64,000 nucleotides of DNA, from the NCBI RefSeq assembly GCF_001428305.1, contig NZ_LMRZ01000005.1:62001-126000 (forward strand), read 5' to 3'. This DNA comes from Janibacter sp. Soil728. GTDB taxonomy: Bacteria > Actinomycetota > Actinomycetes > Actinomycetales > Dermatophilaceae. A model generated the notes under the pieces. That model saw nothing but the letters and a program-made list of their open reading frames with translations. It did no database searches and was not told the DNA's origin. Made by a program: the position numbers and the translations under genes. Positions 5,562 through 33,614 of this stretch are shown in pieces; the stretch's first letter is position 1; the number at the start of each line of letters is the position of its first letter.

Positions 5562-7697
5562 GTGCCTCCGGCAGCCAGCACCGCCCAGAAGACCGCCAGC
5601 AGCAAGACCGCGCAGGACTACACCGCGCACCACCTGCAGGTGCTCGAGGGGCTCGAGGCCGTTCGCAAGCGCCCGGGCATGTACATCGGGTCCACCGACC
5701 AGCGCGGCCTCATGCACTGCATGTGGGAGATCATCGACAACGCGGTCGACGAGGCGCTGGGCGGGCACGGCGACCACATCGCCATCGTCCTGCACGCCGA
5801 CGGTTCGGTCGAGGTGCATGACAACGGTCGTGGCATCCCGGTCGACATCGAGCCGCGCACGGGCCTGACGGGCGTCGAGGTCGTCTACACCAAGCTGCAC
5901 GCCGGCGGGAAGTTCGGCGGCGGTTCCTACACGGCCTCTGGTGGTCTGCACGGTGTCGGTGCCTCGGTCGTCAACGCCCTCTCCTCACGGCTGGACGTCG
6001 AGGTCGACCGCGGCGGCAAGACCTACGCGATGAGCTTCCGCCGTGGCGAGCCCGGCACCTTCTCCGACGTGGCCGGGGCGAAGGGGGCGAAGTCCCCCGA
6101 CAACGAGTTCAGCCCCTACGAAAAGGGCAGCGAGCTGGCTGTCGTCGGCAAGGCCAAGCGCGGCGTGACGGGCACCCGGGTGCGGTACTGGGCCGACTCG
6201 CAGATCTTCTTGAAGGGGGCCGAGCTCGACCGTGAGGCCCTGGCCTCTCGCGCTCGTCAGACATCCTTCCTCGTGCCCGGCCTGACCCTCGTCGTACGCG
6301 ACCAGCGTGGCGAGGAGACCGTGGAGGAGACCTTCCACCACGACGGCGGCATCAGCGAGTTCGTCGACTACCTCTCGCCGGATGCTGCGGTCACCGATGT
6401 GTGGCGGCTCGAGGGCACCGGGACCTTCACCGAGACCGTGCCCGTCCTCGACGCCAAGGGGCACATGACCCCGACCGAGGTCGAGCGTGAGTGCGGCGTG
6501 GACATCGCCCTGCGGTGGGGGACCGGCTACGACGCCAAGCTCGCCTCCTTCGTCAACATCATCGCCACCCCCAAGGGCGGTACCCATGTGGCCGGCTTCG
6601 AGCAGTCGCTGCTCAAGGTCTTCCGCAAGCAGCTCGAGACCAATGCCCGCAAGCTCAAGGTGGGCAACGACAAGGTGGAGAAGGACGACGTCCTCGCGGG
6701 CATGACCGCTGTCGTCACCGTCAGGCTGGCCGAGCCGCAGTTCGAGGGGCAGACCAAGGAGGTGCTCGGCACCAACGCCGTCCGCTCCATCGTCAGCAAG
6801 GTCGTCGAGACCGAGCTGACCTCGCTGCTCACCTCGACCAGGCGTGGCGACAAGCAGATGGCCGCCCAGCTGCTGGAGAAGGTCGTCGCCGAGATGAAGT
6901 CGCGCATCTCCGCGCGGCAGCACAAGGAGACCCAGCGCCGCAAGAACGCACTGGAGACCTCGTCCCTCCCGCCCAAGCTGCGCGACTGCCGCAGCACCGA
7001 CGTCGAGGCGACCGAGCTCTTCATCGTCGAGGGTGACTCCGCCATGGGCACGGCCAAGGAGGCACGCAACAGCGAGTTCCAGGCACTGCTGCCCATCCGC
7101 GGCAAGATCCTCAACGTGCAGAAGGCCGCGGTCGGCGACATGCTCAAGAATGCCGAGTGCGCCTCGATCATCCAGGTCATCGGCGCCGGGTCCGGGCGCA
7201 GCTTCGACGTCGACGTCGCTCGCTACGGCAAGATCATCATCATGACCGACGCCGATGTCGACGGCGCCCACATCCGCACGCTGCTGCTCACCCTCTTCTT
7301 CCGCTACATGCGCCCGCTCGTCGAGGCCGGCAAGGTCTACGCAGCGGTCCCGCCGCTGCACCGGATCGAGGTCATCAACCCCGGGTCGAAGAAGAACGAG
7401 CTGATCTACACCTACTCCGAGGCCGAGATGCGCAAGAAGCTCAGCTCGTTGAGCTCTCGCGGCAAGAACATCAAGCAGCCGATCCAGCGCTACAAGGGTC
7501 TGGGTGAGATGGACGCCGACCAGCTCGCCGAGACGACGATGGACCCGCGTCACCGCATGCTGCGCCGCGTGACCACCGCCGACCTCGAGGCCGCCGAGGA
7601 GGTCTTCGAGCTGCTCATGGGCAAGGACGTCGACCCTCGGCGCGAGTTCATCGTCTCCTCCGCCGACCAGCTCGACCGCGAGCGCATCGACGCCTGA
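5562..7697 (+). CDS. parE: DNA topoisomerase IV subunit B (ParE / second GyrB-type ATPase)
   Basis: A 711-residue type IIA topoisomerase ATPase subunit. The GHKL ATP site is clear: EIIDNAVDEALGG near residue 56, DNGRGIPV near 87, and SGGLHGVGASVVNALS near 126. The TOPRIM domain holds EGDSAMGTAK (about residue 490), LLPIRGKILNVQKA and MTDADVDGAH (about 561). The C terminus carries QRYKGLGEMDADQL. EGDSAMG instead of gyrase-type EGDSAGG is typical of the actinobacterial ParE branch, and the dnaN-recF-gyrB neighbourhood expected of gyrase is absent. The start is a GTG at 5562. It acts with ParC, encoded about 1.7 kb downstream on the other strand, to decatenate replicated chromosomes. Confidence 0.93.
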   Translation: MPPAASTAQKTASSKTAQDYTAHHLQVLEGLEAVRKRPGMYIGSTDQRGLMHCMWEIIDNAVDEALGGHGDHIAIVLHADGSVEVHDNGRGIPVDIEPRTGLTGVEVVYTKLHAGGKFGGGSYTASGGLHGVGASVVNALSSRLDVEVDRGGKTYAMSFRRGEPGTFSDVAGAKGAKSPDNEFSPYEKGSELAVVGKAKRGVTGTRVRYWADSQIFLKGAELDREALASRARQTSFLVPGLTLVVRDQRGEETVEETFHHDGGISEFVDYLSPDAAVTDVWRLEGTGTFTETVPVLDAKGHMTPTEVERECGVDIALRWGTGYDAKLASFVNIIATPKGGTHVAGFEQSLLKVFRKQLETNARKLKVGNDKVEKDDVLAGMTAVVTVRLAEPQFEGQTKEVLGTNAVRSIVSKVVETELTSLLTSTRRGDKQMAAQLLEKVVAEMKSRISARQHKETQRRKNALETSSLPPKLRDCRSTDVEATELFIVEGDSAMGTAKEARNSEFQALLPIRGKILNVQKAAVGDMLKNAECASIIQVIGAGSGRSFDVDVARYGKIIIMTDADVDGAHIRTLLLTLFFRYMRPLVEAGKVYAAVPPLHRIEVINPGSKKNELIYTYSEAEMRKKLSSLSSRGKNIKQPIQRYKGLGEMDADQLAETTMDPRHRMLRRVTTADLEAAEEVFELLMGKDVDPRREFIVSSADQLDRERIDA

Positions 7698-23383: not shown

Positions 23384-24076
23384 TCAGGACGAAGGGGTGG
23401 GGCGCCGGCGGCTCTTGCTGCCAGGACGCATCATCGCCTCGAGCTCCGGCTCGGCCTCGGTGGTGGTGAGCAGGAGCAGCTCGTCGTGCGCCTCGAGGGA
23501 GTCGTCCGGGGTCGGTCCGATGGGACGGCCGTCGCGGATGATGCCGACGAGCAACGTGTCGATCGGGAAGGTGATGTCGCCGACCCGGCGACCCACGTTG
23601 GGGTTGTCCGCGGGCAGGGTGATCTCGGCCATCGCCGCATTGCCCTGCTGGAAGTCGAAGATGCGCACGAGATCGCCGACGCTGACGGCCTCCTCGACGA
23701 GTGCGGTCATCAGGCGCGGGGTCGACACGGCGACGTCCACGCCCCAGGACTCGTCGAACATCCATTCGTTCTTCGGGTTGTTGACCCGGGCAACGGTGCG
23801 GGGGACGCCGAACTCGGTCTTGGCCAGCAGCGACACGACGAGGTTGACCTTGTCGTCACCGGTCGCGCAGACGACGACATCGCAGGACTGGATCTCGGCC
23901 TCCTGCAGCGTGGACAGCTCGCAGGCGTCGCCGGAGAGCCAGTTGGCCTCGGCCAGCTTGGCCACCCGGACCTCGTTGGCGTCCTTGTCGATGAGCAGGA
24001 CGGTGTGGTCGTTCTGCAGGAGCTCTTGGGCGATGGACCGGCCGACTGAGCCGGCTCCGACGATGGCGACGCGCAT
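23384..24076 (-). CDS. ceoC: TrkA/RCK-family potassium regulatory protein (CeoC-like)
   Basis: A 230-residue RCK protein. The N-terminal Rossmann domain starts MRVAIVGAGSVGRSIAQELL, with the acidic end of strand 2 in VLLIDKD, so it should bind NAD(H) or ATP/ADP. The C-terminal TrkA_C domain (from ~residue 140) ends in DELLLLTTTEAEPE and a basic tail. RCK pairs gate potassium channels and transporters from the cytoplasmic side. Its start is 3 nt after the stop of the second RCK gene, so the two are one operon. The same pair occurs in mycobacteria as ceoBC beside an APC permease. Confidence 0.9.
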   Translation of the reverse strand: MRVAIVGAGSVGRSIAQELLQNDHTVLLIDKDANEVRVAKLAEANWLSGDACELSTLQEAEIQSCDVVVCATGDDKVNLVVSLLAKTEFGVPRTVARVNNPKNEWMFDESWGVDVAVSTPRLMTALVEEAVSVGDLVRIFDFQQGNAAMAEITLPADNPNVGRRVGDITFPIDTLLVGIIRDGRPIGPTPDDSLEAHDELLLLTTTEAEPELEAMMRPGSKSRRRPTPSS

Positions 24077-28240: not shown

Positions 28241-31042
<2,802 letters not shown>

Positions 31043-31050
31043 CGTCCGAC

Positions 31051-31084
31051 CCTTCGAGACGCTTGCTGCGCAAGCTCCTCAGGG
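31051..31084. repeat. Interspersed hairpin element, copy B
   Basis: CCTTCGAGACG, stem GCTTGC-TGC-GCAAGC, then CTCCTCAGGG. It lies directly after acnA and runs into the tandem repeat array. Confidence 0.75.
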
Positions 31085-31156
31085 AACGTGAGGGACCCTC
31101 GGGGAACGTGATCGATCCTCAGGGAACGTGAGGGGTCCTCAGGGAACGTGAGGAAG
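31077..31156. repeat. Four exact-length 20-bp tandem repeats
   Basis: Units at 31077, 31097, 31117 and 31137 share CCTCAGGGAACGTGA (unit 2 has CCTCGGGG). In units 1, 3 and 4, CCTCA pairs with TGAGG around a 7-nt loop, so each unit is itself a small hairpin. The array leads straight into the acnA terminator. Confidence 0.9.
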
Positions 31157-31184
31157 GGGGTCGCCCGGTTGGGCGGCCCCCTTC
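31153..31184 (+). terminator. acnA terminator
   Basis: GAAGGGGGTCGCCC pairs with GGGCGGCCCCCTTC with one G-T wobble and a GGTT loop. The outer arms are part of the repeated GACGAAGGGG-type motif. Confidence 0.85.
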
Positions 31185-31204
31185 GTCATGTCGCCGGAAC
31201 GGCG

Positions 31205-31225
31205 TACACTCGAACACATGTTCGA
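31205..31225 (+). promoter_or_regulatory. LexA (SOS) box overlapping promoter and start codon
   Basis: TCGAACACATGTTCGA at 31210-31225 is a perfect match to the actinobacterial LexA consensus TCGAAC-N4-GTTCGA. TACACT at 31205-31210 is a -10 box 7 nt before the ATG at 31218, so the operator covers the -10 edge, the inferred transcription start and the first codons. Confidence 0.85.
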
Positions 31226-31661
31226 TCACACGGCGGCTCCTCCGGTACGGACGGCGCTGCCAGGGTCGCCCGGGGCGCGTACCGCTGCCGGGAGGGCGGC
31301 AGGAGGACCTCCGGGGTGGCCGGACCGCGTCCCACCGCCCAGCGTGCGCAACTGGCAGGCAGCGGCTGTCTCGTGGCTGCTCGACCTGTGTCCACCCGAC
31401 TACCGCGGGCACGCCGTGCTGCGCCGCCACCCGGCAGCGCTGGCCTGGCTGACCGAGCAGCACGTCGCCGCGCAGGTCGAGGCGATGCGGCAGGCCTATC
31501 GCACGGTGCGGGTCGACCTGGCCGAGTCCCTGCCCGACGGGACGCTCGACGCGCTGCTCGTCTGCCTCGAGCACGAAGGGCTGCGGTTGCGGGCCGCTCA
31601 GCGCGCCATCGTGCTCATCCGTGAGGCGATGGACGGGAGCATCTTCGTCGAGCGGTTGTGA
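31218..31661 (+). CDS. Conserved hypothetical protein, predicted LexA-regulated
   Basis: A 147-residue soluble protein with no recognised catalytic motif. The first 45 residues are Ala/Gly/Pro-rich and probably disordered. The remainder is helical: VRNWQAAAVSWLLDLCPPDYR, HPAALAWLTEQHVAAQVEAM and a C-terminal helix pair ending in IREAMDGSIFVERL. Homologues with the same DLCPPDYR core are, to my knowledge, common uncharacterised actinobacterial proteins. The ATG at 31218 is placed inside a perfect LexA box and 7 nt after a TACACT -10 box, so a leaderless, DNA-damage-inducible transcript is predicted. It lies between acnA and dxs on the same strand but has its own promoter. Confidence 0.85.
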   Translation: MFDHTAAPPVRTALPGSPGARTAAGRAAGGPPGWPDRVPPPSVRNWQAAAVSWLLDLCPPDYRGHAVLRRHPAALAWLTEQHVAAQVEAMRQAYRTVRVDLAESLPDGTLDALLVCLEHEGLRLRAAQRAIVLIREAMDGSIFVERL

Positions 31662-31751: not shown

Positions 31752-33614
31752 GTGGCAGTCCTCGAGACGATCACCTCTCCCGCCGACCTCAAGCGACTCC
31801 CCGCGGAGCAGCTCGAGACCTTGGCGCAGGAGATCCGAACCTTTCTCGTCGCGGAGGTCTCGCGCAGTGGGGGACACCTCGGACCCAACCTCGGGGTCGT
31901 CGAGCTGACCATCGCGATCCACCGGGTCTTCGACTCGCCGAGCGACACCGTCGTCTTCGACACCGGCCACCAGTCCTACGTGCACAAGCTGCTCACGGGA
32001 CGCCAGGACTTCAGCGGGCTGCGCACCCGCGGCGGGCTGTCCGGGTACCCGAGCCGCGCCGAGTCCCCGCACGACGTGGTCGAGAACAGCCACGCCTCGA
32101 CCTCCCTGTCGTGGGCAGAGGGCATCGCCACCGGTTATCGCCTGCGTGGCGAGGAGCGCCACGCGGTCGCGGTCATCGGTGACGGCGCGCTGACCGGCGG
32201 CATGGCCTGGGAGGCGCTGAACAACATCGCCGCCCGCAAGGACCTCCCGCTCGTCGTGGTGGTCAACGACAACGAGCGTTCCTACGCCCCGACGATCGGC
32301 GGGCTCGCCGACCACCTCGCGATGCTGCGCACCAACCGCCAGTACGAGCAGGTCCTCGACTGGGGCAAGGACAAGCTCCACCGCACGCCCGTCGTCGGGC
32401 GGGCGGCCTACCAGGCCTTCCACTCGATGAAGAAGGGCGCCAAGGACTTCTGGGCGCCGCAGGGGATGTTCGAGGACCTGGGCATCAAGTACCTGGGTCC
32501 GGTCGACGGGCACGACGAGGCGAGCGTCGAGCAGGCCCTGCGCCGCGCGCGGGCCTTCGGTGGGCCGGTCCTCGTGCATGTCATCACGCAGAAGGGGCGT
32601 GGTTACGAGCACGCCTACAACAACGTGGCCGACCAGTTCCACGCCGTCGGCAAGATCAACCCGGAGACCGGTCTGCCCCTGGAGATCTCCGGACGCTCGT
32701 GGACCGACGAGTTCGGTGACGAGATGCTCCGTCTGGGCGCGCAGCGGCCCGACATCGTCGCGATCACCGCGGCGATGATGATGCCGGTGGGCCTGCAGCC
32801 CTTCGCCGAGGCGTACCCCGACCGGATCTTCGACGTCGGTATCGCCGAGCAGCACGCGACGACGATGGCCGCCGGTCTGGCCTTCGCCGGCATGCACCCG
32901 GTCGTCGCGATCTACGCGACCTTCTTGAACCGTGCCTTCGACCAGCTGCTCATGGACTGCGCGATGCACAAGGCGGGCGTGACCTTCGTCCTCGACCGCT
33001 CCGGCGTCACCGGTCCTGATGGCGCCAGTCACCACGGCATGTGGGACATGTCCCTCGTCTCCTTGGTCCCGGGCCTGCGGCTGGCCGCACCCCGCGACGG
33101 GCAGCAGATCCGTCTCGCCGTGCGTGAGGCGGCCGACGTCGACGACGCACCGACCGTCATCCGTTTCCCGAAGGGGAGCGTCGGTGACCCCATCGAGGCC
33201 ACGGCGACCATCGACGGTCTCGACGTGCTCTCCGGGGACCCTGCCGTCGACCCCGAGGTCCTCCTCGTCGCCATCGGTTCCATGGCCGGGACCGCGGCGA
33301 CCGTCGCGGAGAAGCTTGCTGCAGAGGGCCACTCGACCCTGGTCGTGGATCCCCGGTGGGTCCTGCCCGTGCCGACCGCGCTCGTCGACCTCGCCCGCCG
33401 CGCCGGTCGGGTCGCCGTCATCGAGGACAACAATGTCGCCGGCGGGGTGGGTGCCGAGGTCGCGCGCGCCCTCGACGAGGCCGGTCTGGCCGTGCCCGTG
33501 CACCGCTTCGGCCTGCCCAAGGAGTTCCTCGACCACGCCTCCCGAGCCCAGGTGCTCGAGACTGTGGGCCTGACTCCCGACCCGATCGTGGAGCGGTTGC
33601 GCACCCACCTCTGA
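31752..33614 (+). CDS. dxs: 1-deoxy-D-xylulose-5-phosphate synthase
   Basis: A 620-residue thiamine-diphosphate enzyme that condenses pyruvate and glyceraldehyde-3-phosphate, the first step of the MEP isoprenoid pathway. The N-terminal [15 protein letters not shown] and [13 protein letters not shown] motifs are followed by the ThDP-binding [16 protein letters not shown] (from ~143), the transketolase-type [16 protein letters not shown] (~360) and a conserved C-terminal domain. The GTG at 31752 begins at the family's usual AVLETI start; in-frame sequence upstream is not conserved. It precedes the ABC operon without an obvious terminator (177-bp gap). Confidence 0.97.

Follow-up and report, generated by a model that had tools for sequence, protein, structure and literature searches.

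The window analyzed here (i.e., the whole stretch of 64,000 nt from a Janibacter genome) carries a 147-aa ORF on the forward strand (31218..31661). It is flanked by two genes of the same orientation in the ORF list: an upstream neighbor (28241..31042), which we take from family knowledge to be the aconitase gene acn, and a downstream neighbor (31752..33614), which is presumably dxs (1-deoxyxylulose-5-phosphate synthase), also named on family grounds. In most of the orthologous loci, dxs likewise lies 3' of the gene. At the start of the ORF, a LexA operator (SOS box; TCGAACACATGTTCGA; 31210..31225, no strand assigned) forms a perfect palindrome across both half-sites, and a putative forward-strand -10 box (TACACT; 31205..31210) ends 7 nt 5' of the ATG (31218-31220). 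The first-pass annotation had described a perfect LexA box that overlaps this -10 box and whose right half-site encodes the first codons (Met-Phe-Asp) of the 147-residue protein. All parts of this description were borne out: 31210-31225 matches the consensus exactly, a single base (31210) serves both as the final T of the -10 box and as base 1 of the LexA box, and the right half-site GTTCGA spans the G of the ATG together with the Phe and Asp codons (MFD) of ORF 31218-31661. The operator fits the LexA motif tCGAAC-N4-GNNCGa identified in Streptomyces venezuelae by chromatin immunoprecipitation sequencing (ChIP-seq) (PMC9380542). It is the sole perfect LexA site in the window, which contains 13 sites with two or fewer mismatches, versus 3.45 expected; a weak LexA-like site at 23754 lies within a TrkA-like coding region.

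The box spans the expected transcription start site of the putative promoter, for which a scan with the E. coli-type consensus called no -35/-10 pair. An alternative start, at 31188, could be proposed on paper but was ruled out, as the ATG found there is not kept among the orthologs; the start position within the box is occupied by ATG or GTG in every Janibacter ortholog. Between acn and the promoter, a G+C-rich hairpin without a T tract (31153..31184, forward strand) was read from the sequence. It may mark the end of the acn transcript, and a terminator scan did not call it. In the same intergenic region, a 20-bp unit (TCCTCAGGGAACGTGAGGGA and variants; 31076-31151) is repeated four times in tandem, and its core has no exact or one-mismatch copies elsewhere in the window.

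The encoded protein has a variable N terminus (residues 1 to 30), which is probably disordered, followed by a helical domain running from PPGWP to FVERL. This core domain (31302..31658, forward strand; about 120 aa) consists of short helices and then a hairpin of two helices of ~30 residues each. The N terminus varies across the family, for which the core consensus is PPGWP...WLLDxCPxDYR...RRHPxALAW...FVPRL, and arginines and histidines are conserved within the helical domain. In an AlphaFold2 model (mean pLDDT of 92.8 for the core), the protein is small and all helical. Searches of Pfam, NCBIfam, PHROGs, and PADLOC returned no credible domain, in agreement with the earlier reading of the protein as lacking a known domain. 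The best match in a sequence profile search of the PDB was not credible (E value of 0.08), Foldseek searches of the PDB and BFVD with the full model or the core gave no match at an E value of ≤0.001, and the best VIA-align matches (Z score of 7.9) were to generic helical hairpins. No interaction motif was found in the protein, and the fold provides no functional hint. The average hydropathy (GRAVY) is -0.09, with no sign of a membrane segment. A literature search of partial coverage revealed no description of the gene.

Conservation of the LexA box and promoter geometry

Of 58 relatives, 36 carry the ORF; within Janibacter, it is present in 15 of 16 genomes (the sixteenth is 79% complete). All 15 Janibacter orthologs have a perfect or one-mismatch box, and pairwise comparison of these loci gave identities of 100% (left half-site) and 98% (right half-site), versus 32% upstream and 53% downstream of the box. 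Absence of the box upstream of orthologs had been named in the first-pass annotation as one of the outcomes that would speak against its reading. Scanning the 250 bp located 5' of the conserved core in 78 named loci from Janibacter and other genera revealed that the box is kept, with two or fewer mismatches, at 47 of them, versus 0 of 67 control regions. Overall, conserved boxes were found in Janibacter, Knoellia, Phycicoccus, Tetrasphaera, Ornithinimicrobium, Serinicoccus, and Kineococcus, along with two other families of the class. Many of the Ornithinimicrobium and Serinicoccus loci have the box TCGTACACTTGTTCGC/T, the TCGTAC half-site of which is shared with the dnaE2-1 box of S. venezuelae, a site that has been validated experimentally. 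No box was found at the orthologs of Arsenicicoccus, Mobilicoccus, Intrasporangium, and Humibacillus, or within 260 bp of the gene in the ORF-containing families f16, f109, f114, and f5. At one locus (L114:5820-5855), two perfect LexA boxes overlap through a common half-site (TCGAACAAACGTTCGAACATCTGTTCGA) upstream of an ortholog with a leader.

The position of the promoter relative to the gene is more uniform than that of the box. Of the 59 distinct boxed loci, 54 have a TANNNT hexamer that ends 6 to 8 nt (nearly always 7 nt) 5' of the start codon, and the mRNA is probably leaderless, because this gap corresponds to the spacing expected for leaderless transcripts; a few loci (Kineococcus and L114) have a leader. 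The box occupies three positions on this promoter: (i) in Janibacter, Knoellia, Phycicoccus, and others, it begins on the final base of the -10 box and covers the start codon; (ii) in Ornithinimicrobium and Serinicoccus, it is centered on the -10 box and directly followed by the ATG; and (iii) in families f24 and f102, it lies just 5' of the -10 box, as read by eye. In all of these arrangements, LexA would cover the promoter. Conservation of MFD as a peptide was ruled out, since the protein does not begin with MFD in families in which the box lies elsewhere. The DNA site rather than the peptide is thus conserved, because the box moves while the geometry of the -10 box and start codon stays the same. 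These loci clearly illustrate how a LexA site can shift among three positions while the promoter, which is apparently leaderless, stays fixed.

The LexA regulon and the dnaE2 operon

The 3.64-Mb Janibacter genome contains five perfect TCGAAC-N4-GTTCGA sites (TCGAACNNNNGTTCGA). In addition to the site described above, they are located (i) between the class II ribonucleotide reductase gene (nrdJ) and lexA, (ii) between an AlkB-like dioxygenase gene and recO, (iii) 5' of a DUF6504-HEPN_SAV_6107-dnaE2-polY operon, and (iv) 5' of a DUF222/HNH nuclease gene; the recA box has one mismatch. The LexA gene of the same genome (L047:6644-7393; TIGR00498, E value of 1e-71) has boxes upstream. The other genes with perfect boxes are a strong internal positive control for the regulon. 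The S. venezuelae LexA regulon shares the operator consensus and the core targets lexA, recA, alkB, and dnaE2 and contains no recognizable relative of the ORF in its table of selected members (PMC9380542). A fortuitous palindrome that is not under LexA control would fit with regulation being predicted from a sequence match but is highly improbable, as the box is kept across genera and families at differing positions, its half-sites are far better conserved than the flanks, and every other perfect site in the genome precedes SOS genes or the nuclease gene. The gene is very probably a member of the LexA (SOS) regulon, with SOS control predicted from the operator. The earlier suggestion that the protein could be an undescribed component of the DNA damage response gains good computational support, because the box is conserved upstream of the orthologs and the rest of the regulon serves as a positive control.

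Three features of this regulon were observed in passing. The intergenic region of lexA and nrdJ (L047:6380-6560) contains several LexA-like sites, including one perfect site and one with a single mismatch, an arrangement that suggests shared control of lexA and the B12-dependent ribonucleotide reductase. The DUF222/HNH gene located 3' of its perfect SOS box (L054:5035-6817; G000:C3:144034) contains 18-bp tandem repeats and a frame change (5729-5804), which suggest that the gene may be broken or prone to slippage. A one-mismatch SOS box (L050:5420; G000:C3:10419) lies in a prophage-like cluster just 5' of a terminase-like gene (names assigned by eye) and possibly represents SOS-linked phage control.

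The LexA-boxed dnaE2 operon of this genome encodes DUF6504, HEPN_SAV_6107 (L055:5606-6079; E value of 9e-20), DnaE2, a methyltransferase, and PolY. The ORF lies outside this operon, with the two boxes 34 kb apart on the same contig; the distance between the ORF and the operon is 34 to 58 kb, or the two are unlinked. The operon content, which does not include the ORF, is broadly conserved in the 20 ORF-containing genomes examined, and a LexA-like box (two or fewer mismatches) occurs within about 310 bp of the operon in 19 of them. SOS boxes are found at both the ORF and the dnaE2 operon in this genome and many relatives and at dnaE2 only in some families. DUF6504 is probably a stand-alone ImuB-C protein, given where it lies in the operon and that it is also found in Caulobacter. 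We found no description of a role of the HEPN_SAV_6107 family in translesion synthesis (TLS). ImuB-C has been described as a stand-alone SOS protein (PMC3765255), and a 2026 survey proposes DnaE2B-PolY-[ImuB-C]-RecA and DnaE2B-iPolY-RecA complexes for Actinobacteria lacking ImuA/ImuB (PMC12926913).

Co-occurrence with DnaE2 and DUF6504

Among the 58 relatives searched, all 36 genomes with the ORF also encode DnaE2. Only three genomes have DnaE2 without the ORF, namely, two with a divergent DnaE2 (41 to 44% identity) and a third in which the match is partial and lies at a contig end. At the genus level within the family of this Janibacter strain, both the ORF and DnaE2 are present in 14 genera and neither is present in 7. 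The comparison was extended to 248 genomes at the order level using DUF6504, which is encoded by the first gene of the dnaE2 operon. With thresholds for presence that were picked after the E-value lists were seen, 58 genomes have both the ORF and DUF6504, 3 have the ORF only, 1 has DUF6504 only, and 186 have neither (i.e., agreement in 244 of 248 genomes; phi of 0.96, versus 0.62 for the control gene nrdJ). These counts exclude DUF6504 matches weaker than an E value of about 1e-9, which come from families that lack the ORF and were taken to be a divergent form, as well as one 32-residue match to the ORF (E value of 5e-4) that was considered spurious. All four genomes with only one of the two genes are fragmented drafts with 430 to 1,060 contigs.

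The association is looser at the class level. A distant homolog without DUF6504 occurs in 22 Streptomyces-like genomes (f21), a weak DUF6504 match without the ORF occurs in 34 members of the small-genome family f107, some genomes of families f24 and f112 have the ORF only, and six genomes of family f102 have DUF6504 only. The distant Streptomyces-like homologs that were read have no SOS box, and an SOS gene of this type was ruled out on that basis. Such a homolog (L151:3483-3863 and L153:4136-4516) lies beside a gene of ~800 codons, unlike the acn/dxs setting, and an RpiR-like regulator (named by eye) also adjoins it in L152 and L153.

A general link to the SOS response was ruled out by the persistence of LexA: lexA was found near nrdJ in seven of nine tested genomes lacking both the ORF and a strong DUF6504 match, one of them a two-contig genome from the family to which Janibacter belongs, and several of these seven genomes carry LexA-like boxes upstream. 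In the remaining two, the stretch examined around nrdJ contains no lexA, which says nothing about the rest of the genome. RecA would generally be expected in genomes lacking the ORF as well. The ORF therefore follows DnaE2 and not the SOS response as such, because, as far as could be checked, the genomes without both genes keep LexA.

Candidate roles of the protein

The pattern described above points to a protein that probably serves as an unlinked, SOS-induced accessory factor acting with the actinobacterial DnaE2 mutasome. More tentatively, it may be a previously unreported direct subunit of a DnaE2-[ImuB-C]-PolY mutasome, with a novel TLS fold and in the adaptor role taken elsewhere by ImuA'/ImuB. 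The mycobacterial ImuA'-ImuB-DnaE2 mutasome offers a parallel, in that DnaE2 there requires SOS-induced accessory proteins; however, the ORF has neither a RecA-like nor a Y-family domain in Pfam or NCBIfam and is neither ImuA' nor ImuB. To our knowledge, the makeup of DnaE2 complexes outside the mycobacteria is known from prediction only. The putative DnaE2B-PolY-[ImuB-C]-RecA mutasome corresponds to a matching LexA-boxed cassette in this Janibacter genome that the ORF tracks, whereas the ORF itself is encoded elsewhere, has no recognized fold, and was not found in the survey text that was searched (PMC12926913).

Two other SOS-related roles appear unlikely. In one, the protein would be an SOS checkpoint factor that delays division or replication in the manner of SulA, YneA, ChiZ, or DivS, and a shared lifestyle, instead of a common complex, would account for the match with DnaE2. 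The strong SOS operator and small size of the protein are features it has in common with the SOS division inhibitors (ChiZ/Rv2719c, DivS, YneA, and SulA), and SOS regulons usually hold such an inhibitor, none of which was recognized beside lexA, where the divergent neighbor is nrdJ. Nevertheless, there is no sign of the membrane-plus-LysM architecture of ChiZ, DivS, and YneA, because LysM (like any other known domain) is absent, the average hydropathy is near zero, and no membrane segment is apparent. The ORF also differs from these inhibitors in co-occurring with DnaE2, and a checkpoint protein would have no reason to be missing jointly with DnaE2 from 7 of 21 genera of one family.

We regard it as similarly doubtful that the protein is an SOS-regulated partner of RecA, AlkB, or RecO, or of DNA or RNA directly, with the DnaE2 co-occurrence arising from co-inheritance within lineages. 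The conserved arginines and histidines of the helical domain would suit such a partner, and shared ancestry also leaves the control gene nrdJ moderately correlated with the ORF (phi of 0.62). The DUF6504 association is far tighter than that of the control (phi of 0.96), the association with DnaE2 is perfect among the genera of the family to which Janibacter belongs, and LexA persists in genomes that lack the ORF, all of which argue against this explanation.

For the accessory factor of the DnaE2 mutasome that we favor, computation shows the operator and its conservation, the promoter geometry, the other members of the regulon, and the co-occurrence with DnaE2, and we infer LexA binding, induction, leaderless translation, a physical or functional interaction with DnaE2, and an adaptor role. 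In an undamaged cell, LexA would block the leaderless promoter by binding over the -10 box, the transcription start site, and the start codon. DNA damage would lead to RecA-stimulated cleavage of LexA and free the promoter, so that induction would be concurrent with that of lexA, recA, alkB, and the dnaE2 operon. The small helical protein would then act on or with the DnaE2 cassette (i.e., DUF6504, HEPN_SAV_6107, DnaE2, and the Y-family polymerase), most likely as a noncatalytic adaptor or regulator of the mutasome. Such a role is a natural guess because DnaE2 depends on accessory proteins in other bacteria.

In actinobacteria, mutation induced by damage is driven by the error-prone polymerase DnaE2. 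A family that bears an SOS operator, lies outside the dnaE2 operon, and is absent where DnaE2 is absent represents a testable candidate component of this system, and operon-based surveys would overlook such a component. The near restriction of the family to actinobacteria with DnaE2 suggests that it may be an overlooked helper of damage-induced mutation.
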